The translations under genes and the position numbers were made by a program. From the NCBI RefSeq assembly GCF_017921895.1, contig NZ_JAFIDN010000001.1, positions 62,001 through 126,000 on the forward strand: DNA of 64,000 bases. The letters run 5' to 3'. Shown in pieces: positions 43,257 to 56,235 of the stretch (position 1 is its first letter; every line of letters begins with the position of its first letter). The DNA is from Natronogracilivirga saccharolytica. GTDB lineage: Bacteria; Bacteroidota; Rhodothermia; Balneolales; Natronogracilivirgulaceae. A model generated the notes under the pieces. The model did no database searches and was not told the origin of the DNA. It saw only the letters and a program-made list of their open reading frames with translations.

Positions 43257-43784
43257 TTATCGCTGACTATACCAGTATTTCAGGCCGGGATACAGATCTG
43301 AAACAACATCGGTGTTGCGTTCAACTGCCTTGTTCCAATAATATTCGGCCTTTTCATTATCTCCCATAGAGTGATATACAGATCCTTTCAAAGCCAGCAT
43401 GTCAGCCGTTTCGTCCCGGTTCAATCCCTGCGAAATATATTCATAAGCCAGTTCCGTATCTCCTTTGAATAATGCTTTCTGGGCTTTCACATGTTTGGTA
43501 AGACTTCTGTTGGTTTTCATGAACGTATCGTGCTCAAGTTGCAGATAGTGCCGGTTTTCATCATGCATCCGGTTGAATACTTCCAGTGTTTTAACATCCG
43601 CAATCTCTTCAGGAGTTACACTTTCAAGAGTATCCTCATCTGCTGCTTCCCTGTCTTTTTCAGCCCGCAGAGACATGGGTGTCTGGCTGGTTGAAGTACA
43701 CGCCAGAGCGCCGGTCAGTAAAAGCATCGAAATAAATAATACTGTCAAATTCCGCCCGTGAAGGAAATATTTATTGTCGGTCAT
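43257..43784 (-). CDS. TPR lipoprotein at the end of the chaperone-usher locus
   Basis: 175 aa. A lipoprotein signal has the cysteine in LTGALAC (about residue 29), so the protein is membrane-anchored. The C-terminal half is a TPR-like repeat, ADMLALKGSVYHSMGDNEKAEYYWNKAVERN, here split as LALKGSVYHSMG and EKAEYYWNKAVERN. It matches the C-terminus of the usher-like protein two genes upstream (LALKGSINYLLG and FWEQASQRN). It lies 28 bp after the FliF-like gene. A role as a peripheral assembly or docking factor for the usher is inferred. Confidence 0.75.
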   Translation of the reverse strand: MTDNKYFLHGRNLTVLFISMLLLTGALACTSTSQTPMSLRAEKDREAADEDTLESVTPEEIADVKTLEVFNRMHDENRHYLQLEHDTFMKTNRSLTKHVKAQKALFKGDTELAYEYISQGLNRDETADMLALKGSVYHSMGDNEKAEYYWNKAVERNTDVVSDLYPGLKYWYSQR

Positions 43785-43812
43785 ACTATTTCTTTAAAAA
43801 ATTGTGACGCTG

Positions 43813-44634
43813 TTAAGGGTTTCTGTTCTCCGCTTCTCTTTGATCCGACAGTCTCCGATAAAAATACCAGATAAGAAAAATAATGATCAGCAGAAGCAGC
43901 ATCGACAAGGCACCGGATACAAAGCCGGCTGCACCTGCCCAAAATGACACCTCTTCGGTATCTTCTTTAGTGAACTGCTGAAGTTCAATCGTAAACCTGT
44001 CACCACGATCATTATCAAGTCTGACCCTGCTTTCAACGATTTGACTCATCAAATCAAGGTCTTCATTACTGTACAACGAATCAGCATACAAGGTAATTTC
44101 AAACCTTTCAATATCCAGAAACTGAATCTCACGCTTGTCAATTTGTTCAGCCTCTTGTTCGATTTGCAATTCTCTCAAATAGGCTTCCGGGACAAAAGGC
44201 AGCCCGGGCAAGTCGGCATCAGCCCTGCGCAGTTCCTCCCACCGGTGCAGAACAGGAACGTCAACACTGTAAACGTTTTTTGAAATATCCGCCCGCACAT
44301 CAGTCAGGAACGTATTCGGATCAAAAAAAGCCTCCAGTGCCCGTTGTAACTCACGACCAATTCTGTGCTCTATATCCTGTGACAGCTCTTCGTCACGAAT
44401 CTGTTCCGTGCGTTCTGCATCCGTTCCCGAAAGCAGCGCCTCAAGAATTTCTTTTACAGTATAGGACCTGGTGGTGCGTGTGTCATCTTGTTCCTGATCT
44501 GTGTAATTGCTCTCTTCCAATTCAGTACCAGCTGACACAGATCCGGCTGATCCATAGGATAACGGGACCGGGCAGAGACTTATACCCAAAGCCAAAGCAA
44601 TGAGCAGCAGAGGGAAATTTTGTGTATTTAGCAT
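43813..44634 (-). CDS. Inner-membrane protein resembling the FliF C-terminal region
   Basis: 273 aa. Residues 1-28 are a signal peptide. Residues about 85-120 (DIEHRIGRELQRALEAFFDP..) and 193-232 (DLMSQIVESRVRLDNDRGDRF..) follow the order and wording of the FliF MS-ring C-terminal domain: a helix with a paired amphipathic pattern, then the A/V-x-x-V-x-L-x-x-x-RGD block before the second membrane helix. Residues 236-258 are a transmembrane segment followed by a basic cytoplasmic tail. There are no other flagellar or injectisome genes nearby. It sits between the usher-like gene and the TPR lipoprotein, so an inner-membrane ring or anchor for the fibre system is possible. The similarity is by eye only. 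Confidence 0.6.
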   Translation of the reverse strand: MLNTQNFPLLLIALALGISLCPVPLSYGSAGSVSAGTELEESNYTDQEQDDTRTTRSYTVKEILEALLSGTDAERTEQIRDEELSQDIEHRIGRELQRALEAFFDPNTFLTDVRADISKNVYSVDVPVLHRWEELRRADADLPGLPFVPEAYLRELQIEQEAEQIDKREIQFLDIERFEITLYADSLYSNEDLDLMSQIVESRVRLDNDRGDRFTIELQQFTKEDTEEVSFWAGAAGFVSGALSMLLLLIIIFLIWYFYRRLSDQREAENRNP

Positions 44635-44666
44635 AATGGTAATGTTTGCGGTTGGATATTTTGCTG

Positions 44667-47630
44667 TCAGTTCCGTTCCGGTATAATACTTCTTTCAAGC
44701 TCATCCATGTCCGGAATCTCAATATCCGGATTCCTTTGTGATGCCTGCTCCCAGAATTCTCTGGCAATTTCCCGTTGTCCAAGCAGATAGTTTATCGATC
44801 CTTTCAATGCAAGGCCGTAATCTGTCTCGTACAAATCAAGTGATCGCTGAATAAAATCAAGAGCTTTTTCAAGCTCCTGATCAACCGTTGCCTGCTGGGC
44901 TGCTGCAAAAAGCCTGAGCGCATTTGCGGCTCTTTCCGTCAGGCGCTGCAGCAGATCTTCACTGACAGGCATCTCATCAGGAGGCATTTCCGGCACTCTG
45001 TCAAAGAGCACGAAATTCATATCCTCAAGAATGTCGCCCTCTGCTGTGGCTTCAACTTCATAGCGCATTATTGCCGGATCGGAGTAAACATCCAGAAAAT
45101 CAAGCTGAGTAGAGTCAACCCATGATTCATATCTGCCAGGGGGAATTTCCATGGTGTAATAACTTCCGTCTGAAAAAGTGCGGACAGTTTTATCGAAGTC
45201 CCCGTCCAGCTGACGTATCCTTACCCTGACTCCTCCAAGTCCGTGGTCTTCCCCTCTTTGCTGCCGCAGAACCATGCCCTCGACAACACCGCTCATATAA
45301 AATGGAATATCCATGGGTTTGAACCTGTTGGGGTCGGCAATGAAAGAAAAGTCACCGACATATGGTACCAGAAATGGATCGGGAATGGCTCCTGTATTGA
45401 TCTCGACATTTTCCTTGTAGTATTGCTGCAGTTGCGTTACCCTGACAATTCCGTCATCATGAAGCCTTGTTCTTCCAGTCCTGTCCAGTCTCAGTGCATC
45501 CGCATGAATAAGTTCATCTCCTTCATCATAGGTTCCGCTGTTGTTGTGATCCACAAAAAACCGGAATGAAGCTGCGGCGCGGCCGACCTGTTGTCTGTTG
45601 TAGAATACCATCCGTTCATGGTAATCATCAAAGCCTACAGATCCGCGAAGACTTTGCCGCACGGAGGATGATCCTCGTGCCGTGCGGGCTGTTGTCGTTG
45701 AACGGGTACGGTTGAAGTCAAATGTGAGCCCGGCTTCAAAGATATTGTTCTGGCTGATCAGGTCTCTTCCGGCAGAAAACCGGAACCATCCGTTGGAAAG
45801 AACTCTCCTGGATACCTGAAAATCAATTCGTTCAAACTTGTCGCGGCTCAGACTGTAATCTAGCTGTGTCCTGAAGTATGTACCTCTGAACATACGGGGC
45901 GTGGTACGTGCCCGGCTTGCCGAATAGGTAACGGTGGAAGTCAAGCGGCCGTCTGTAGACAGCCGTTCGCTGCCGTCATACCGAAACGTGTCACGGTAGC
46001 CACTGCGTAGAGTCAATCTGCCGAACCGCACACCAAGTTCGGTTCTGATCCTGTTGTTGCTTCTGGATCCAAAGGCTTGTCTGTCGGCGTGCAACCTGAA
46101 ATTGAACGGAGTTCCTGAGAAGAGAAACGGAAGGAAGAGATTTGCCCGCGCGTCGTAGTCATAGCGCCCGACATTGTGGATGGCATCTTCGGTAGTAAAG
46201 TGAGTGTAGGTAATGTCCCAGCTGGCGGAGTTTGGATAGACAGCACTTGTTGAAATACGGTAAAGAGCGTCCGGAGCTATATCAATGCTGGTGAGATACT
46301 GATCGAAGAATCTTGCCGACAACCCGCCATATAAAAGAGGCCTGTTGTCATGAATTTCTGAGTAATAGTCCCCTCCGAGAGAAGCCGTCAGCCAGTTTGA
46401 GACCCCGTACGACATTTTTGCTGAAGCCATATCAGAATAGGATTGGGATCCCGGCAGAGGAGTCTCCAGACGCCCGGCACTTACGTTGTAATTGAACTCT
46501 CCCGGCGGAAGAAATGTAAACGGAATCTGAATTCGACGATCATCCTCACGTATTCTTCCATCCGGTTCATATACCATCAGCCGAACCTGGTTGCTGCCAT
46601 ATGTCATGGGAACTGTCAGATCATAAGTGCCCATTTCATCAACAATCTGATAATCAACAAGCCGGTTGTTAATGAAGAGTTCTACTTCAGAATCGGCTGG
46701 TGCTGTTCCGTGGAAAACAAAATCGTCCAGCATACGCCGTGGCATTATCGGCTGATTGGTGAGGTGAATGCCGCGGAATTGTCTGGATTGGAGTCCTTCC
46801 GAGTAATGCTGCCCAACGTAGAGCTGTGTAAGCCAGGGCTGATCATCAAATACATACCGCCATCTCATGTTACTTGTCGTCACACTGGATGTGGTTTCGG
46901 TCCAGACGCCGAACAAACCGCCCTGCAGATCGCCACCCAGCACCTCCATACCCAGAGCACCCGAATAATTGTAGTTGTTAGGCCTGTCGCTGATATTGGC
47001 AGTAAGTGAATAATCAAGAAAGCCGCCGCCAAGGAGACTCCTTCTTCGTTCAAACTCCTCTGAATAGAACTCCAGATATGGTATTCCAAGCTCCATTCTG
47101 GCCCGCTGCTCTCTTCTTTCAAATCGGCGAACCACCGGCATTGTTTCGGGAGACTGAAGGCGCAGGAAGAGGTTGCTCAGGTCAATCTGAAAATCCATGT
47201 TGAATATTTTTGAAAACAATTCCGGATCCATGTAAAAATCCATCTCATCAACAAACATCTCGTCTATTGAGAAGTTGAATGTTTCATCTTTTATGGATAC
47301 CCGGAATTGTGAAAAATCCAGGCGGAACTTCCTGTCTGGTTCCAGATAATGACCGGAAAGCAGAAGCTGCCCGGCATCTGTCTGATAATATATTCCCAGC
47401 AGATCGAACAGCTCAGAGACCGGCAGATATATCCGGTCTCTGTACATAATAGCAGTCACGACCTGTTCATCCACTCCCCTGTGTCGAAATGCAAGGAATA
47501 CTTCTTCCCGAACCGCCTCATCGGGTCCATTGTCAGCTGCGATAGCGGACAGCTTCAGGCTATGGTCTGGCGATCCCGGAAGGATCAGCAGCCACACCAT
47601 AATCGCTATAATGCAGACAACGAGTTTCAC
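44667..47630 (-). CDS. Usher-like outer membrane protein with C-terminal TPR
   Basis: 987 aa, starting at a GTG. A signal segment is followed by an N-terminal domain (about 40-165), then beta-strand-rich sequence. Residues 301-370 resemble the usher plug: FVFHGTAPADSEVELFINNR, then GTYDLTVPMTYGSNQVRLMV and YEPDGRI, as in FimD/PapC/TcfC-type ushers. Residues about 380-740 have alternating aromatic beta-barrel strands. About 780-880 is a carboxypeptidase-regulatory-like domain (GGVRVRIRQ.., ..FSDGSYYTMEIPPGRY). The last 90 residues are a TPR-like helical unit not found in classical ushers. It follows the chaperone gene by 258 bp. The overall architecture suggests the outer-membrane pore for the subunits encoded upstream. 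Confidence 0.75.
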   Translation of the reverse strand: MKLVVCIIAIMVWLLILPGSPDHSLKLSAIAADNGPDEAVREEVFLAFRHRGVDEQVVTAIMYRDRIYLPVSELFDLLGIYYQTDAGQLLLSGHYLEPDRKFRLDFSQFRVSIKDETFNFSIDEMFVDEMDFYMDPELFSKIFNMDFQIDLSNLFLRLQSPETMPVVRRFERREQRARMELGIPYLEFYSEEFERRRSLLGGGFLDYSLTANISDRPNNYNYSGALGMEVLGGDLQGGLFGVWTETTSSVTTSNMRWRYVFDDQPWLTQLYVGQHYSEGLQSRQFRGIHLTNQPIMPRRMLDDFVFHGTAPADSEVELFINNRLVDYQIVDEMGTYDLTVPMTYGSNQVRLMVYEPDGRIREDDRRIQIPFTFLPPGEFNYNVSAGRLETPLPGSQSYSDMASAKMSYGVSNWLTASLGGDYYSEIHDNRPLLYGGLSARFFDQYLTSIDIAPDALYRISTSAVYPNSASWDITYTHFTTEDAIHNVGRYDYDARANLFLPFLFSGTPFNFRLHADRQAFGSRSNNRIRTELGVRFGRLTLRSGYRDTFRYDGSERLSTDGRLTSTVTYSASRARTTPRMFRGTYFRTQLDYSLSRDKFERIDFQVSRRVLSNGWFRFSAGRDLISQNNIFEAGLTFDFNRTRSTTTARTARGSSSVRQSLRGSVGFDDYHERMVFYNRQQVGRAAASFRFFVDHNNSGTYDEGDELIHADALRLDRTGRTRLHDDGIVRVTQLQQYYKENVEINTGAIPDPFLVPYVGDFSFIADPNRFKPMDIPFYMSGVVEGMVLRQQRGEDHGLGGVRVRIRQLDGDFDKTVRTFSDGSYYTMEIPPGRYESWVDSTQLDFLDVYSDPAIMRYEVEATAEGDILEDMNFVLFDRVPEMPPDEMPVSEDLLQRLTERAANALRLFAAAQQATVDQELEKALDFIQRSLDLYETDYGLALKGSINYLLGQREIAREFWEQASQRNPDIEIPDMDELERSIIPERN

Positions 47631-47888
47631 GAATAAGTGTATTTAAATGGTTTACGGTAAAAAAGCAGATGACTGGATTTTTTTCATGCACAATCTCGAT
47701 ATATACTTCAAGTGAAAACAACATCCTGAAGATCAAACCTTTGTATGATAAAATCGCAATTAGTTTCATTAATAGCACCGGCATAAGTATTAGATTATTC
47801 CAAACAAACTGCCGCTTTTTCTTTTTTAAAAAACTGATTGCCGGCATGGTTTGTCATCTCTCAGCCGTATGAAAAAACAGGAAGAAAA
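47631..47888. other. Gap between the chaperone and usher-like genes
   Basis: 258 A/T-rich bases with no supported gene. No clear hairpin or promoter was recognised; it may hold an internal promoter for the usher-like gene. Confidence 0.3.
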
Positions 47889-48731
47889 TTACTCTGAAAT
47901 CCGGAATGAAACTGTTTCCGTCACCGGTGTTGTCTGGACAATATCACGCGAAGAAATGTCAGGTCTCTGAGATTCAAATCTGACTTCAGCACTGTATTCT
48001 CCTGAAGAAAATTCCGAAGTATCAAAAGCCATCCGGCGGATAACATCCATGTAAACCGTGGTTGATTTCCGGCGTTCATAGACTACTTCATCATCACTGT
48101 TGCGTACTGTAAGGAACATAGAACCAAGAAACGGGGAATTCCCGGTTCGGACAACTTCTGCTTCTATTTCTTTTTGATTCCCACTGTCTTTAACATCCAC
48201 TGCCTTGATCTCAACTCCGGTGTTTACATCACCATGCTTGTAAAACCCTGCAGTTACCTGTTCAAACCGAAAAGTGATTTGAGCCTGAACCCCGTCTGTT
48301 ACTTCATCATCAATATCCGGAACGGCAGGGTTAGACGCTGTTTTAATCCGTGTCCAGTAAGTTCCGTCAGCAATATCCTGAGGGGGTCTTACTGTCATGC
48401 GAACTGTTTGTCGCTCATCAGGTTCCAGTGTAAAACTTCTGGGGAATACACGTACCCAGTCTGCCATAGAATACTTTTCCCGGGCCTGTTCGTCATCATA
48501 GTTCATAAAACTTTGGCCATTCTCATCGGTATCAGGGTAACCAAACTGAAAAGAGAGTGAAACTTCCTGTGTTTGGCTCGAACCGTTAATGACAATAAAT
48601 GTTCCGAACCTGGAAGTATCGTCAATGAAAAGAGCTGTGGGAGCAATTGTAACCTGTGCCAGTGCATTGCCGGTTACAGCCATGAGTAAACCAATGAATG
48701 CAAGTGACAGAGTTTTAAAAAAGGTGGCCAT
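47889..48731 (-). CDS. PapD-like periplasmic fimbrial chaperone
   Basis: 280 aa, signal peptide 1-25. The N-terminal Ig-like domain has PTALFIDDTSRFGTFIVIN and the G1-strand-like block VRVFPRSFTLEPDERQTVRM, matching the PapD-type pattern (R/K at the P-strand, alternating hydrophobics before the LEPDERQTVRM turn). The second domain is less conserved (..KEIEAEVVRTGNSPFLGSMFLTV..). It would cap folding subunits and hand them to the usher. It is larger than classical PapD (about 225 aa) and lies downstream of a cluster of small subunit genes. Confidence 0.85.
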   Translation of the reverse strand: MATFFKTLSLAFIGLLMAVTGNALAQVTIAPTALFIDDTSRFGTFIVINGSSQTQEVSLSFQFGYPDTDENGQSFMNYDDEQAREKYSMADWVRVFPRSFTLEPDERQTVRMTVRPPQDIADGTYWTRIKTASNPAVPDIDDEVTDGVQAQITFRFEQVTAGFYKHGDVNTGVEIKAVDVKDSGNQKEIEAEVVRTGNSPFLGSMFLTVRNSDDEVVYERRKSTTVYMDVIRRMAFDTSEFSSGEYSAEVRFESQRPDISSRDIVQTTPVTETVSFRISE

Positions 48732-48870
48732 ACACTTAAGATGTTATAAATAGTTTCATGGTTGAAATCAGGTAAGCTTACTCCGGATATTATACCAAAA
48801 ATTGCACCGCTGATGTTAATGCTGCAAGGTAATTTAAAGTAAACGATGGCTTGAATAGTAAATATAAATA

Positions 48871-48904
48871 AAAAAGCGGCTAACCCACAGAGAGCAGCCG
48901 CTTT
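48871..48904 (-). terminator. Hairpin between the putative major subunit and the chaperone gene
   Basis: AAAGCGGCT (48873-48881) pairs with AGCCGCTTT (48896-48904) around a 14-nt loop; on the minus strand a T-rich run follows (complement of 48865-48875). It lies 25 bp after the stop of the 173-aa subunit gene. It probably ends most transcripts there and lets a fraction read on into the chaperone and usher genes. Confidence 0.75.
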
Positions 48905-48928
48905 CCAACATCTGTCTGAAAAATCAGA

Positions 48929-49450
48929 TCAAACATCCTGTTCAACTGTGATAACGATTTCTCCGGAATAGCTGCCTGATTCCTGGTTGGAAGGCGGATC
49001 AACTGTTCCCCCGAGAAATACATTAAGCTGCTGCTCGGCACCACCGCTTACCGGTGTTGTAACACCATCTACCGGGCTGAACATGTCACCGGTTGCCGGA
49101 TCATTTTCCGTATTGTAAATACCATCATTGGCTCCGAAGGAGATCGGCATGGTAGCGCCTGCATCCAGAGCGACCCCTGATATGCCCACAAGTTCCGTGG
49201 GGAGCGTGAATGTAAATGTCACATTTTCATCACCGGTGTCAATTACAAAACGTCCGGCCTGATTGTCTGACGGTTCAATGCTGGTTGAAGTACCCGCTGT
49301 AACGGTACCGAATTCCAGATTATCTACACCAAATACCGAAAAAGCCGACACCACATTGGCAGTAGCTTCTATATCTGCTGTTTCCTGGGCATGTACATTT
49401 GCCACTGTAACAGCAAAGAGCAGCATTATGGTAAGTATTCCTGATTTCAT
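48929..49450 (-). CDS. DUF4402-type small surface subunit, putative major pilin
   Basis: 173 aa, signal peptide 1-21 (..NVHAQE). The mature protein has the DUF4402 pattern: a short N-terminal strand (ADIEATANVVSAFSVFGVDNLEFG), Gly/Thr-rich beta strands, and the C-terminal ending GSYSGEIVITVEQDV shared in pattern with the four other subunits. The strong downstream hairpin suggests high expression, as for a major subunit. It precedes the chaperone and usher-like genes. No Cys pair is present. Confidence 0.8.
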   Translation of the reverse strand: MKSGILTIMLLFAVTVANVHAQETADIEATANVVSAFSVFGVDNLEFGTVTAGTSTSIEPSDNQAGRFVIDTGDENVTFTFTLPTELVGISGVALDAGATMPISFGANDGIYNTENDPATGDMFSPVDGVTTPVSGGAEQQLNVFLGGTVDPPSNQESGSYSGEIVITVEQDV

Positions 49451-49672
49451 AATTTATCTCATATGTTTGTGATATGACAATCATGCACGAGTACACAGGA
49501 TACCGGCCTGATTATCACTTTTTTTGATTGCTGTTTGTTTAAAAGTACATTCAATTCACCATCACTCCTAATTATTATTCATTAATGTTTTTACAATAAA
49601 AAAATTGGCATAAAGTTCTTAGAGCCCGTTTTAGTATTAATGATTTTTAATTTTATATAAGAGTATAACAGT

Positions 49673-50248
49673 TTATTCATATTCTACCGTCAGAAAGACA
49701 TCAGCATCGTATGATCCGGCAGGTATGTCGCCTACCTCGATCAGGCCGTATACATAGATATAAGCCGTAGCTGTTGCAGCGGTCCTGTCGGTCACTTGCT
49801 GTTCATCGGAATCTTCATAAATAGAAAACCTGATATTCGGATCAGGTAATGGCTCTGCATGATCGATATTATTCTCATTTCTGTTGGCCATCGAAACTTC
49901 CAGATCTACGGGAATTCTGAAGTCACCGTTCCCGTTGCTGAACTCGAGGTATTCCGGCAAATCCAGATTCAGCTCAACAACCATATCTCTGGGCCCGCTC
50001 ACGGAGAAAACTCCCATTTCCGAGTCACCAAGTGGTATACGAATGCTTCCCATATTCGGTACCACCTGTCCAAAACTCAGGGGTTGCATCATTTCAGCTA
50101 CAATTTCGGAATCCACGTCTAACGATAGGGTAATATATTGTGCTCTTGATGCCTCCGCCGACAGAACAGTAAAAAGCAGCATCAACACAGGAACTGTAAT
50201 CCTGGATGAAACCCGGTCCCGCAAAGACAATTCCGACTTAGATATCAT
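49673..50248 (-). CDS. DUF4402-like surface subunit
   Basis: 191 aa with an export signal ending near ..EASRAQ. Family-like start YITLSLDVDSEIVAEMMQPLSFGQVVP and C-terminus GSYDADVFLTVEYE. It overlaps the upstream subunit gene by 11 bp, showing coupled translation. Probably a minor subunit. Confidence 0.75.
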   Translation of the reverse strand: MISKSELSLRDRVSSRITVPVLMLLFTVLSAEASRAQYITLSLDVDSEIVAEMMQPLSFGQVVPNMGSIRIPLGDSEMGVFSVSGPRDMVVELNLDLPEYLEFSNGNGDFRIPVDLEVSMANRNENNIDHAEPLPDPNIRFSIYEDSDEQQVTDRTAATATAYIYVYGLIEVGDIPAGSYDADVFLTVEYE

Positions 50249-50876
50249 ATGTCACTTCCAGTGTGATTTGGGCTCTGTAATATCCCGGCAAGATCCCTGA
50301 AGGTATGCCGCTTCCATCTCCGAGAATACCTCCTATCAGCAAATATGCAGTTGATCTGGGAGGTTCATATCCTGAATGAGGGGGCGTTGGGGGCGGCCCC
50401 GGGGGACCACCGTCCCGTCTTCTTACGGGAAAGCGGGCCATGGTACCGGAAAACTGCTCCCGGGAACCGCTTAAACCTTCTCCCGTATTGGAATAAGCAA
50501 ATTTGAGCTGAAGCGGAATACGTTTTTGTGAGTCAGCCGTAACCACTCCATCCAGCCACAGGTATTCGGGATTCTCGACAACATTGACAAACACATCCAG
50601 ATAACTGACACCTTCGATGGCAACTATACCTGCTTCTCCACTATGCACATCAATAACTTCCTGAGCAGTCTGACCGGAAATGATCATTCCGAATTCAAGG
50701 TTTTGCTCGGCATAAAGATGAACGGAATAGCGCTCGTCGTCGGGAACAAATGATCCAAAATCCACCTCCTGACTATAAACGGATGTTGCGGCCAATCCCA
50801 GCTGAATTGCAAATGCAGCCAATGCCAGTCGCAGCAAATATACAATCCGGTTATTGTGTTTGTCGCTTAGTGACAT
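50238..50876 (-). CDS. DUF4402-like surface subunit with a Pro-rich insert
   Basis: 212 aa, signal segment to about residue 36 (..SVYSQ). The DUF4402-type strand NLEFGMIISGQ is near the start and the end is GYYRAQITLEVTYDI. Residues about 150-170 carry a Pro/Gly-rich loop (GGPPGPPPTPP) absent from the other subunits. Its start is 41 bp downstream of the previous subunit gene. A minor subunit or adaptor is inferred. Confidence 0.72.
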   Translation of the reverse strand: MSLSDKHNNRIVYLLRLALAAFAIQLGLAATSVYSQEVDFGSFVPDDERYSVHLYAEQNLEFGMIISGQTAQEVIDVHSGEAGIVAIEGVSYLDVFVNVVENPEYLWLDGVVTADSQKRIPLQLKFAYSNTGEGLSGSREQFSGTMARFPVRRRDGGPPGPPPTPPHSGYEPPRSTAYLLIGGILGDGSGIPSGILPGYYRAQITLEVTYDI

Positions 50877-50916
50877 AACAGAGTGGTAATTCTTTTTTCA
50901 AGTGGATACTGACTTC

Positions 50917-51474
50917 TCATGGGTACTCAATTTCCACGGTAAACATTCCTTCATAGCTGCCTCTTGAAGCATTTTCCAAATTAACTTCACCGCCGATCCA
51001 GAAATAATACTCACCATCTTCATTTAAAGAATACTGACGGTTTTCAAGGTCCAGCACTTCTGCCGATGCCTGGTCTTCGATCTCATTACCGGCAATGACA
51101 AACTCAAAAGTCACCTCTGCCCCGCCTTCCATGTGGCTAAGCGACTGTTCCCGGACGAAGCTGATCTGAACAAGTGCGTTGGGCTCCCCTTCTGCACGCA
51201 GCAGTCCGGATCGTGAATCAGTAACAGGGTCAATATTGACACGTCCCCTGCTTGCCAATTGCTGGTCCAGACTCATGTTTCTGAGGGTGGTGAGCTGAAC
51301 TTCAGTCGGTATGGCAATAGAAGCGGCAACATTGATTGTACCTGTTTTGACTCCGTTATTCCCATTGCCATTCTGTCCATACACCGGCTCTGTTGCAAGT
51401 ACAGAAAACATTGCCAGACACACTATGGCGCAGGCAAAAACTCTGGAGTTATATGTTACAGAAACAAGCTGCAT
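50917..51474 (-). CDS. DUF4402-like surface subunit
   Basis: 185 aa from the ATG at 51474; a TTG at 51480 would add two residues. The signal segment ends near ..VYGQ. The mature part has GTINVAASIAIPTEVQLTTL, a strand-rich middle and the shared C-terminal pattern GSYEGMFTVEIEYP. It starts 14 bp after the stop of the T9SS-tail beta-helix gene and belongs to the same transcription unit. Confidence 0.72.
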   Translation of the reverse strand: MQLVSVTYNSRVFACAIVCLAMFSVLATEPVYGQNGNGNNGVKTGTINVAASIAIPTEVQLTTLRNMSLDQQLASRGRVNIDPVTDSRSGLLRAEGEPNALVQISFVREQSLSHMEGGAEVTFEFVIAGNEIEDQASAEVLDLENRQYSLNEDGEYYFWIGGEVNLENASRGSYEGMFTVEIEYP

Positions 51475-51488
51475 TTTCAACCATGGAT

Positions 51489-54400
51489 TTATTTTACCAG
51501 CATCATTTTTCTGCTGCGAACCTCATTGCCGGCAACTAGCCGGTATATATATGTGCCGCTCGCCACTCGTCCGGCATCCCAGATAAGCTCATGCATTCCA
51601 CGTTCATACATGCCATCAGCCAGCACAGCAACTTTCCTGCCCATGACATCATAAATGACCAGGCGTACATGTGACTCTTCCCTGACGCCAAAAGTTATTG
51701 TGGTTGCCGGATTAAAGGGGTTGGGATAGTTCTGTTTCAGGGTAATGCCGTCAGGAACACTCTCCTCTGACTCCTCAGCCTTATTCAGCAATTGAATATC
51801 TATATAAAACCTGCTGTCATTCTTGCCTGCACTTCGTTTTAGCTGCAACGGCTTGCCCGGCCGGTTAACCTCTTTCATCACATCGGCAGTTCCGGCTGAA
51901 CCGCCTTTACGTATTTCAACTTGAGACCCGAGGTCTGCCTTTTTGGATTTCAGGTGCTGTGAAGACTCAAGGATGAAATCATAGGCGGACTGCTCTCTCA
52001 TGTTAACCCGTTCACCTGTTTTGCGATCAACCAGCCATACTGAATGGTTATCTGACAGGTTACCGGGAATGTTCCAGTAGAGTTTCGCTTCACCATTGAG
52101 CGGCATTCCTGAAGAAACACCAAAAGCATCAACCGGGATTTTTGCGGATTCCTCAAACTGGTCCGGCAGACTGTTCACAGACAACTGAGTGCCGTCACCA
52201 CGATAGGAGAACAAGGATACATGATCATCAGAAAGCGGAATGAGCCGGTAAGTGTCATACATATCTTTCCCGACAGATCCCAACCCGGAAAACATCAGCT
52301 GAGCCTGTGCCCTGCTATCCGACTCACTGTGCTCAAGCTGCAGATCCATAACTTCTGCTTCATTTTCAGACAATGATGATGACCCTTTATCTGAATTCTG
52401 TGCCAATGCACCGGGTGGTACCTGCTTGCCCAAAAACCTGCCTCCGGTAGTTTTGGCATCTGCCGAAACCTTCAGTTCCGCATCCTCTGATTCCGCCTTG
52501 ACCCAGAAGGCCTGAAACGGAGCTATTTTACCCTTTTCCAGCTCCGAAAACGTTGCAGATCCGTCACCTGAACCGCCGCCTGATCCGGTATTGCCGGTGA
52601 TGCCATTCCAGTAGCGATATTCACCCCGCCCGTTATTTCCGGAAGGATCCCAAATGTAAACGGCCCGATGCATATCGTTTTTTACCCAGCCGTCAGCGTC
52701 CCAGTCCAGTGTTGCACCAAATGGATTGCCTATCAGGTTCCAGCCCTGATCATCCGAATTCATTTTTCTTGCCGTGTAACTGACATCAAACTCAAAATAA
52801 TTATCATCATCACCGAACGGACTGTCAAACGGCTCGTTTTCCTGTCCGGATGCAGATATTTCGAACGGGAGCTTGTCATCTCTCTCAGACCCGACACCAT
52901 CGCCGGACAACCCTCCGGCACCATCAAATACGTATACAAAATATCCCCTGCCCGGAACCAGTTTATCCTGCTCGCTGTGCAGGGTTCGCCATCCCATATT
53001 GGTGGTTACGGTATCTCCGGGTGTATCTTCTTTGAAGTACAGGATATTGGGCATCTGGTCTGGGTAGTCTGATCCCGCAAAACCTTGTGTTACAATTCGC
53101 TTTCCGTTGTCTTCAAAATCAGGACCCCGGGTGAAGTCACTGAATTCGGTTTCAACAGGCGATGATACCAGCCGCCATCCTTTGCTGCCTGATATATTTC
53201 TGAGAAAGCGAAGAGAACCTGCGTTCTTGTCAGGAATGGTTTTGTCATTGGCGACGAGATTGTTGCCGGAACGGATCGTCAGCACGCCCTCAAGAAGCAG
53301 GAGGTTTTCGGTAGTTACAAGATCCGATGTGACTTCAACACCCTGAGGATTGTCGATGGTAAAAGTGGCCGTATATACAGGCAGACCTGATCCCGTTTCC
53401 TGGGGAACTTGCCCGTTATAGACGTAGTGGGCCCGGGTGCTGAATGATCGCGCTGCCATCCTGACGGCACCGGCATTTTCCGATAATGTAATGCCATCGC
53501 CGGAGCCGATTTTCAGTTTTCCTCCCGCTTCAAGCACAAAACTTCCCGATCCTTTGAGATAGTGTATACCGGTTTCAAGCGCACCGGTGTTTTTTAAAGA
53601 TATCCGCTGGTCGTTTTCTACATTATCCTCCAGCCGGATGACATGATCTGCGGCAATTTCAACTTTGTCATTGCGCTGCGGCGGTGTGTCAGCCGGATCC
53701 CCTTCATGCGAGGCATCGAGCGTCCAGGAGTCAGCTGACTGCCATTTCCCGCTTTGCCGGCTGTAGTAAACTACAATTTCAATTCCCGGGAATTCATATG
53801 CTCCCATATCTACTACCGCCTCGCCGTCGTCCGTACCGTCCTGAATCCGGATATTTCCGTCGAGATCCCTGGTGATGTGTTCAGCAATGCCGCCGCTTTC
53901 AAACGGTTCATTGATACCGGAGTCGATTACCGGTGCCCCCTCAGTCAGACGATAGTTGCCGTCCGAGTTTGGGGTATTATCGGCAAGCGGATCAATATGC
54001 TGCATAAAAATATCTGACGCCGAGATCCCCATTTTGGGATTGGTGGAAAAAATTGTAGCACCGTCCCTTGAAACAGATGCTGAATAAGCAGAATAATCAA
54101 CAATCATTTTGGTCAGCGGGCCCTTGGCAATCAGATCGTGATCACCATCTTCCGCTTTATTTCCAAGTATGATGGAGTTCAGGATCTTAAGTTCTCCTTT
54201 GTCGGTTCCTGATTCTGAACCGGTGACATGGATCAGCCCGCCGGCATCACCGCTTGAATAGTTGCCGGAAACAGTCACGTTGATCAGTGTGGCCTGAAGC
54301 CCGTCAGCAATATCAGAAAACCGGGCACCGCCACCACTTGCATCCGATCCGCTGAGTTTGTTTCCGGTTATCAGGCCGTTGACCATCAGAAGCTCAGATT

Positions 54401-55211
54401 GACTGACATTCATTCCCGCACCGAATTCCCGGGCCTTGTTCCCGGAAATAATGATATTTACCATTTCCAAATGGCCGGCATCGGTTATGTGGATTCCGCC
54501 GCCCCAACCGCCTGCATAATTGTCGGTCACTGTGATATTTCTGAAGACAGGCCCGCTGCCGGAACCGTTCCGGCTTTTGCCGGAGTGAAAAATTCCTCCG
54601 CCCTTGTTTCGGGGCATCCCCAGCTGATCTTCACCCTGTAAATCGGCATGCCCTCCGCGGATGGTAAATCCATCCAGAACTGCCCCGCTGTCAAGCTCTT
54701 TTGTATCAGGATGATAAATAACCCGCAGAACATTATCTGACCGGTTGACAGAGAAATCCCCCGGAGTATCATCCTGGTTCAGGTCACCGCTGAGTATGGT
54801 TTCATTGGCACTGAAGTCCCGGTCACGGAGATCGAATGTTGCAGGATCTTCTATTCCCTCGAAACCGCCGTATATCCGGACGCCCTTGCCCAGCTGGAAC
54901 GTCTTGTACCGGGAATCATCTCCTCCTGCTTTCCTTTCCGGAAGATAGGTGCCGGCGGCAACCCATATTTCCGATCCTTCAGAGGCGGCATCCAGTGCAT
55001 CCTGAAGTGACGTCATTGCATTCTGCCAGCTGTCACCGGTACCGGTTCCTGTGGCCTGAAGATCCACGAATATGCGGTTGATGCTTTCCTGCTGGCTGTA
55101 CCGTGCATCTGCATCAGCTATCTGACCAAACAAGGCAATAGCACAAAATACCACCACGTACATCAGTACCATTGCTAATCTGTCAGACCGGTATTTAGCC
55201 ACTATGGACAT
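51489..55211 (-). CDS. Large beta-helix surface protein with T9SS tail, candidate adhesin
   Basis: 1240 aa, signal segment about residues 12-36. Residues about 47-480 form a right-handed parallel beta-helix of the choice-of-anchor-Q type (RIFVDLQATGTGTGDSWQNA, IWVAAGTYLPE, LDGFTIRGG, repeated NxxxGGG turns). A long beta-sandwich-rich middle follows, with a Gly/Ser-rich loop near residue 900. The C-terminus is a T9SS sorting domain (LKQNYPNPFNPATTITF, MGRKVAVLADGMYERG). It sits among chaperone-usher-like subunit genes but has no subunit-type tail, so it should use T9SS instead. Role as an adhesin is inferred. Confidence 0.85.
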   Translation of the reverse strand: MSIVAKYRSDRLAMVLMYVVVFCAIALFGQIADADARYSQQESINRIFVDLQATGTGTGDSWQNAMTSLQDALDAASEGSEIWVAAGTYLPERKAGGDDSRYKTFQLGKGVRIYGGFEGIEDPATFDLRDRDFSANETILSGDLNQDDTPGDFSVNRSDNVLRVIYHPDTKELDSGAVLDGFTIRGGHADLQGEDQLGMPRNKGGGIFHSGKSRNGSGSGPVFRNITVTDNYAGGWGGGIHITDAGHLEMVNIIISGNKAREFGAGMNVSQSELLMVNGLITGNKLSGSDASGGGARFSDIADGLQATLINVTVSGNYSSGDAGGLIHVTGSESGTDKGELKILNSIILGNKAEDGDHDLIAKGPLTKMIVDYSAYSASVSRDGATIFSTNPKMGISASDIFMQHIDPLADNTPNSDGNYRLTEGAPVIDSGINEPFESGGIAEHITRDLDGNIRIQDGTDDGEAVVDMGAYEFPGIEIVVYYSRQSGKWQSADSWTLDASHEGDPADTPPQRNDKVEIAADHVIRLEDNVENDQRISLKNTGALETGIHYLKGSGSFVLEAGGKLKIGSGDGITLSENAGAVRMAARSFSTRAHYVYNGQVPQETGSGLPVYTATFTIDNPQGVEVTSDLVTTENLLLLEGVLTIRSGNNLVANDKTIPDKNAGSLRFLRNISGSKGWRLVSSPVETEFSDFTRGPDFEDNGKRIVTQGFAGSDYPDQMPNILYFKEDTPGDTVTTNMGWRTLHSEQDKLVPGRGYFVYVFDGAGGLSGDGVGSERDDKLPFEISASGQENEPFDSPFGDDDNYFEFDVSYTARKMNSDDQGWNLIGNPFGATLDWDADGWVKNDMHRAVYIWDPSGNNGRGEYRYWNGITGNTGSGGGSGDGSATFSELEKGKIAPFQAFWVKAESEDAELKVSADAKTTGGRFLGKQVPPGALAQNSDKGSSSLSENEAEVMDLQLEHSESDSRAQAQLMFSGLGSVGKDMYDTYRLIPLSDDHVSLFSYRGDGTQLSVNSLPDQFEESAKIPVDAFGVSSGMPLNGEAKLYWNIPGNLSDNHSVWLVDRKTGERVNMREQSAYDFILESSQHLKSKKADLGSQVEIRKGGSAGTADVMKEVNRPGKPLQLKRSAGKNDSRFYIDIQLLNKAEESEESVPDGITLKQNYPNPFNPATTITFGVREESHVRLVIYDVMGRKVAVLADGMYERGMHELIWDAGRVASGTYIYRLVAGNEVRSRKMMLVK

Positions 55212-55425
55212 CAGTTCTTTTTCCTGAACTCTTTCAGACGTGATTTTGATTGCTGTTAATTACCCGAATAATAAGGATTAATGACCGTGATAATCAGTTA
55301 GAATTGATTAATCATACTTCGGCCCGGCTTCAGCAACCTGAAACTCAGTCAATCAGGATGGGAATATCAACAGTGGATAAGCGCCGGTCTCTTTTGGATT
55401 TGTGCGGTCAGCAGATGCGCAACAT

Positions 55426-55935
55426 TCAATAATGCTCTGCTCTTACGGTGTATGTGGCCGAGAAGTTACCCTCATCATAACCGTTTAAATCAATCATTCC
55501 GTACAAATCAACAAACTGAACTGACCTGTAGGTGTCTCTGCCATTTTCAGTAAACTCAACAAGCCGCTCTGCTCCGTTAAGCTCAACCTGTGAATTTTCA
55601 GAAACATCATTGCTTAGACTGATCTGAGGGGTAAAAGTAACAGAACGGCCATTTCCATCATTAAGCTCGTTCCCGCCTGTGACAGATATCGACATATGCG
55701 ATTCGGGGTGCGACGAAATCATGAATCTTGCCCCTTCTTCACTTGATATTTTCAGTTTGTCCCCCGGATTGCCGGCCAGCTCCCTGACAAACCCTCTCTC
55801 GACCTGAATAAGTGATGGCTCAACGGCTTCAACACTTACATTCATTACTGCTGATGCACTCCCGCCACCATTGGCATTCAGTGTTCCCGGGTGCCATATC
55901 ACTGCCAGTAATAATATCGTCAATAACCCTTTCAT
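55426..55935 (-). CDS. DUF4402-like surface subunit, first gene of the fibre locus
   Basis: 169 aa from the ATG at 55935; a TTG further upstream is less likely. Signal peptide 1-21 ending near ..LNANG. The mature part has ASAVMNVSVEAVEPSLIQVERG and ends NFSATYTVRAEHY, in line with the other subunit C-termini. It is separated from the beta-helix gene by 214 bp and preceded by a long A/T-rich region with a 15-bp inverted repeat. Confidence 0.72.
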   Translation of the reverse strand: MKGLLTILLLAVIWHPGTLNANGGGSASAVMNVSVEAVEPSLIQVERGFVRELAGNPGDKLKISSEEGARFMISSHPESHMSISVTGGNELNDGNGRSVTFTPQISLSNDVSENSQVELNGAERLVEFTENGRDTYRSVQFVDLYGMIDLNGYDEGNFSATYTVRAEHY

Positions 55936-56235
55936 AATGAGTGCATTAGCCACGACCAGCAAGGATGAATCCGAATATATTAGAAAAAATTAATATTTAC
56001 CATTATAAATTAAGATTTTTTAATAATAGTTCCGCTACTTTTATCTGTGCCGCTTCAATAAGTCCGGAAGCTACTCTCATTATCGGAGCTTTATTAATAT
56101 CTCTTAATTATATAATCTTAATAAAGCTCCGACTGATGGCATAATTACATCAAGTTGTTTCAGGCAGGCGGTAAAACATGGAAACAACTAATATCTCGTA
56201 AATAGTCCTATGAGCTGCACGGTCAGATGCCGCTG
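55936..56235. promoter_or_regulatory. Region upstream of the fibre locus with a perfect 15-bp inverted repeat
   Basis: This 300-bp gap between the accD stop and the first subunit gene is A/T-rich. TCGGAGCTTTATTAA at 56083-56097 is exactly inverted at 56118-56132 after a 20-nt spacer. No T-run follows on the minus strand, so a simple accD terminator is not evident. It may be an operator or leader hairpin for the fibre locus. No gene was recognised. Confidence 0.55.

Follow-up and report, generated by a model that had tools for sequence, protein, structure and literature searches.

A chaperone-usher fibre operon of Natronogracilivirga saccharolytica is a motorless derivative of an operon that carries flagellar-type motor genes in its relatives

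Introduction

Chaperone-usher pili, among them the type 1, P and archaic Csu pili, have several small subunits, a PapD-like chaperone and an outer-membrane usher made up of an N-terminal domain (NTD), a barrel, a plug-like insert and C-terminal domains (CTDs). Textbooks use such fibres as the standard example of secretion for which the outer membrane offers no energy source. Here we describe a ten-gene locus with all of these parts in a 64,000-nucleotide stretch of the Natronogracilivirga saccharolytica genome (contig NZ_JAFIDN010000001.1, positions 62,001 to 126,000), referred to throughout as the window; coordinates are window positions, and all ten genes lie on the minus strand. In contrast to the described pili, its usher ends in a C-terminal TPR domain, its subunits are of the DUF4402 type, and the operon adds a FliF-like inner-membrane protein and a TPR lipoprotein, joined in relatives by MotA and MotB.

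The added genes recall the flagellar motor. The operon of relatives encodes the C-terminal half of FliF fused to the middle and C domains of FliG, together with MotA and MotB that retain their key residues. Unlike the flagellar motor, it lacks the N-terminal ring domains of FliF, its FliG forms a separate clade, and no gene for FliM/FliN, the rod, the hook or the type III export apparatus was found among the operon genes examined. There is also a likeness to ExbBD-TonB, TolQR, AglRQS and GldLM, the 5:2 motors, in which an inner-membrane ion motor acts on an outer-membrane machine; a review of 5:2 ion motors does not mention ushers and reports no member that acts on one (PMC9389320). Zorya (ZorA/ZorB) is alike in that the operon's MotB-like protein matches ZorB. 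Assignment to Zorya was rejected, as PADLOC returned ZorB matches to MotB only, no ZorA-type or Zorya effector match was obtained among the proteins tested, and the genes stand in an usher operon. A literature search, with preprints and subscription journals outside its reach, found no paper on DUF4402 or on FliG or MotA together with ushers.

Results

Of 60 near relatives 37 have the usher, as do 107 of 245 genomes across the class. Scanning the genome collection with a single sequence found no locus; with a profile made from a Balneolaceae alignment, the scan gave 16 named Balneolaceae loci, including those of Balneola and Gracilimonas. Twelve of these share one gene order, namely a type IX secretion system (T9SS) protein, subunits 4, 3, 2 and 1, chaperone, usher, inner-membrane protein, TPR lipoprotein, MotA and MotB, with the T9SS position taken in one of the twelve (L111) by a large unassigned open reading frame (ORF). 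The complete order also occurs in closed genomes (L112, G028). An earlier note, made from the letters of the window alone, had proposed that conservation of the ten-gene order be checked, and the order of the subunit, chaperone, usher, inner-membrane and TPR genes is indeed kept in these 12 of 16 loci. We place high confidence in the anatomy and linkage of the complete operon.

The inner-membrane protein of the complete operon is a fusion. Homologues in the Balneolales are 610–770 aa long and comprise the C-terminal half of FliF, one membrane helix and FliG; in Pfam searches the FliG part matches FliG_C at E values of 3e-13 to 2e-9, above the gathering score, and FliG_M down to 2e-10. Against the PDB, the family profile matches FliG (1lkv, 3.7e-27) and the FliF C-terminal half (6scn, 1.8e-5), and against N. 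saccharolytica's own genome the profile, which includes the window protein itself, finds the flagellar FliF (4.8e-8) and the adjacent FliG (8.8e-20) in the order of the fusion. In the torque helix of the operon FliG, R281 is retained in 20/22 proteins and an acidic residue at D289 in 19/22. The operon MotA profile matches MotA/PomA structures at 5e-30 to 1e-15 and TolQ only at 0.0017, and both key prolines are invariant (15/15). The ion-channel aspartate is conserved in the MotB-like proteins, whose domains are MotB_plug (above cutoff in 14 usher loci), OmpA (9e-15) and often SPOR (3e-11). Six genomes (G021, G022, G028, G043, G049 and G059) have no FliG or MotB_plug match besides those of the operon.

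Linkage was examined in 52 loci with intact ushers, those running off a contig end, interrupted or too divergent having been removed. A FliF-type gene adjoins all 22 ushers that carry the C-terminal TPR tail and none of the 30 other ushers. The usher tree requires a minimum of 9 changes in this trait, and all 8 of the 8 independent pairs are concordant (p = 0.008). Of the TPR-type loci that could be scored, 16 of 18 have a linked MotAB, compared with 0/30 of the others (7/7 pairs, p = 0.016), and loci either have both the FliG part and MotAB or lack both (16/16 versus 0/2; Fisher p = 0.0065, uncorrected for relatedness). In the window the TPR domain lies at 44688..44960, matches the TPR lipoprotein of the same genome, and is the proposed dock for the inner-membrane part. 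The earlier note had counted the additional inner-membrane and lipoprotein genes as part of the locus and, with the T9SS protein, taken them to suggest a distinct fibre machine. These genes do belong to it, but the note missed the distinctive feature, which is a flagellar-type motor, because the complete operon carries the FliF/FliG fusion, MotA and MotB; in the window this motor has been lost.

Loci of this kind with subunits, chaperone and usher but no motor are widespread elsewhere in the Bacteroidota. Motorless ushers mostly have tails of SPOR, a peptidoglycan-binding domain, that match the SPOR part of the operon MotB, a likeness that suggests domain exchange; a SPOR-tailed motorless usher may be held as if pegged to the wall. 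The SPOR arrays at the C-termini of some ushers (L042, L043, L048, L051 and L206–L214) match the SPOR domain of the motor-operon MotB with E values down to 1e-32.

In the window, homology to the fusions of relatives, the family profile and hydropathy identify the inner-membrane gene (43813..44634, 273 aa) as a truncated member of the FliF/FliG type. The stump consists of a signal peptide, a FliF-C-like periplasmic domain (about residues 110–222), a transmembrane helix at 237–255 and then 18 residues. Taken singly, it matches FliF-C in Pfam at an E value of 0.95, which is not significant alone, and it is the family profile that supports the label; the earlier note recognised the FliF-like domain, though its origin in a truncated FliF/FliG fusion had gone unseen. 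FliG, MotA and MotB are absent from the locus, and the genome's only copies belong to its flagellar cluster, which lies on contig C3. A hidden FliG was rejected, as only 28 bp separate the end of the stump from the TPR lipoprotein gene, which is followed by obg, and the genome has no second FliG. That lipoprotein (43257..43784, 175 aa, lipobox LTGALAC) matches TPR_12 at 1.5e-5, resembles the TPR at the usher C-terminus and is conserved directly after the FliF/FliG gene.

Within one family, a reduction series runs from a full motor (G001) through a locus with FliG_M only and no linked MotAB (G007) to the window. Other motorless truncations are a 224-aa stump in G114 and a decayed second copy of 343 aa in G028. 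The window copy is thus a motorless derivative, one of several motor losses. Because FliG, MotA and MotB are lost while the stump, the TPR lipoprotein and the TPR-tailed usher are kept, its fibre would most likely be passive, anchored and unpowered.

Sequence profiles of usher, chaperone and subunits found no convincing relative in the PDB, and structure search was therefore used for the usher and chaperone. The 987-aa usher (44667..47630) matches Pfam Usher (PF00577) at 6.3e-8; its AlphaFold2 model, built on an alignment of relatives, has a mean pLDDT of 75.9, and its 19 best Foldseek matches in the PDB are all FimD or PapC (8.6e-30 to 1e-9), FimD being the top one. The predicted domains are an NTD (residues 40–180), barrel strands (200–693) with a plug-like insert (304–340), Ig-like CTDs (713–880) and the C-terminal TPR (891–981). 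TM-scores were moderate, about 0.4–0.6, and the domain arrangement is uncertain for this reason. The chaperone (47889..48731, 280 aa), modelled in the same way with a mean pLDDT of 89.5, matched WxLIP, EcpB (8.7e-9), PapD (3.5e-8), CfaA, CsuC and FimC, the last five all below 1e-6 with probability 1.00, and these matches span the classical, alternative and archaic types. In Pfam the single window chaperone matches PapD at 0.1, which is not significant alone, the label being supported by the structure search. The earlier claims of an usher-like barrel with plug and a PapD-like chaperone both hold in the models, by which the window locus is a true chaperone-usher locus.

In the FliG tree, all sampled flagellar FliG proteins, including that of Thermotoga, form one clade (100/99) and the usher-locus FliG proteins another (99/98). 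Two further groups fall between these clades, one of family f42 and one, with poor support, from FliF/FliG-TPR-MotAB loci that have no usher. Long branches were flagged in this tree, and we therefore use only the separation of the groups. The usher-less loci (Balneolaceae L077–L084 and L163; family f42 L159, L161 and L162) encode a FliF/FliG fusion, a 357–392 aa protein, a TPR lipoprotein, MotA and MotB; the C-terminus of the 357–392 aa protein is like the end of an outer-membrane barrel. They may constitute a second non-flagellar motor system. In other Rhodothermia families a different ion motor sits in the usher loci (L183, L184, L186–L194, L196 and L198 of family f8; L164 of f21), which have ExbB (5.9e-12), ExbD (5.8e-7), a transmembrane protein called TonB-like from its topology and position only, and a TPR lipoprotein of roughly 500 aa.

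The subunits share a DUF4402-like sequence signature. For spore-coat-U (SCPU), the subunit type of archaic pili, there was only a match at 0.048 in one distant relative. Two of the five match the family directly in Pfam (PF14352), subunit 1 (48929..49450) at 2.5e-6 and subunit 4 (50917..51480) at 3.8e-5. The other three are recognised through relatives only: subunits 2 (49673..50248) and 3 (50238..50876) are DUF4402-like and, like subunit 4, have conserved orthologues, and subunit 5 (55426..55962) is related to subunit 4 but has diverged, matching the orthologues of subunit 4 in phmmer at 1e-7. Subunit 1 is the most variable among relatives. All five had been called DUF4402-type from the letters, correctly on this evidence, although the boundary given for the last, 55935, is an internal ATG of a genuine ORF that reaches 55962 from a TTG start. 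Between subunits 4 and 5 lies a beta-helix protein (51489..55211) with a C-terminal T9SS type A sorting domain (TIGR04183, 32.5 bits against a cutoff of 23; Por_Secre_tail, 1.4e-5). A homologous T9SS-tail protein stands at the same place in 13/16 named loci; as one of about 97 such tails in the genome, its membership in the machine is supported more weakly than had been claimed. At L109:3748-6630 and similar loci of many relatives, small single-transmembrane proteins of 139, 193 and about 490 aa, of which the longest has DUF4900, lie between the T9SS protein and the subunits, together with a protein of 131 aa; all of these are absent in the window.

All ten ORFs are present on the minus strand at the positions first reported, with intergenic gaps of -11 to 258 bp, and together they make up a chaperone-usher fibre operon of the DUF4402 type. 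It is flanked by ordinary genes, on one side obg, dprA and a sigma-54 gene, on the other an accD-like gene and one for a beta-lactamase-type protein. An assembly artefact was rejected because closed chromosomes also contain the complete operon and because the window locus is deep within a contig of 581 kb. In G002 the system has been lost: a decayed usher remnant of 202 aa (L065:11346-11954), in which usher residues 219–258 are joined to 853–985, sits between accD and obg, as the window locus does.

Discussion

In its complete form, the operon may encode a machine that spans the whole envelope, ion-driven motor included. Ion flow through MotAB would move MotA against the cytoplasmic FliG part, and the force would then pass through the transmembrane helix and the FliF-like periplasmic domain to the TPR lipoprotein, which would hand the movement to the usher's TPR tail and thus to usher and fibre. 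Chaperone and usher would assemble the fibre itself in the way known from other chaperone-usher systems. The full machine, judged from its sequence, probably links the flow of ions to the usher in the outer membrane or to the fibre. We see an even chance that the complete form is an organelle driven by ion-motive force, in which MotAB would turn a FliF/FliG ring and TPR links would rotate or drag usher and fibre, giving movement without a flagellum; other Rhodothermia would have reached a similar end with ExbBD, and the window would be one of several losses. Powered movement of the fibre, taken by itself, we weigh just as evenly, and sequence does not decide between rotation, pulling and powered secretion.

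Several points weigh against a powered, rotating fibre. FimD functions independently of ATP (PMC10673952), and preserved folding and quaternary-structure energy, which is thought to be sufficient, drives assembly and secretion (PMC9452303), so that a motor is not needed for assembly. There is no report of gliding in these phyla (PMC5167729). The operon FliG (TIGR00207) and MotA score under the NCBIfam equivalog cutoffs, and the operon FliG has lost the FliM-binding EHPQ motif, which makes use of the switch proteins FliM/FliN improbable. Two FliF/FliG-type proteins (L066:2253-4571, of the full motor in G001, and L031:4392-5930) carry a LysM domain in their periplasmic part. If it binds peptidoglycan, this domain would tie the rotor to the wall; it is difficult to reconcile with a ring that turns freely and speaks against free spinning in G001.

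The LysM domains also bear on the strongest alternative, that the motor powers or gates export and leaves the fibre unmoved, a pull on the usher plug or CTDs helping subunits or the T9SS-tail partner outward. Distant usher loci that replace MotAB-FliG by ExbB/ExbD and TonB-like proteins, which are pullers and not spinners, point the same way. However, SPOR-tailed and other sister operons that lack the motor still have this usher, chaperone and set of subunits, so that their export presumably needs no motor, and FliG with MotAB is rotary in the only known case; we consider this alternative unlikely.

It is much less probable that FliF/FliG and MotAB form a sensor of wall tension or surface contact on the fibre. 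Flagellar stator units sense load, and the operon MotB has wall-binding OmpA and SPOR domains; yet the operon has no conserved signalling gene, and the torque-helix charges and channel residues are retained. Slightly weaker still is the case that the motor genes merely adjoin an ordinary chaperone-usher operon and work elsewhere: usher-less FliF/FliG-TPR-MotAB loci are known in the same and other families, but the gene order is conserved over three families, the match of usher TPR tail and FliF gene is perfect and repeated on the tree, and the usher-locus FliG proteins are a clade of their own. It is very unlikely that the window stump still works with the flagellar MotAB and FliG, whose genes lie on a different contig, since, although the genome has flagellar FliF, FliG, MotA and MotB, only 18 residues and no FliG-binding part remain past the transmembrane helix, and the intermediate truncation in G007 likewise has no linked MotAB.

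The main interest of the operon lies in its complete form in relatives, by which some pili may be driven by a rotary motor. The proposed coupling could be tested in cultured Balneola and Gracilimonas, with the motorless sister operons as natural controls. If it is correct, the MotAB-FliG motor would have a use outside flagella, which would bear on the relation of flagellar motors to envelope motors, and non-flagellated Balneolales might possess a powered surface appendage.

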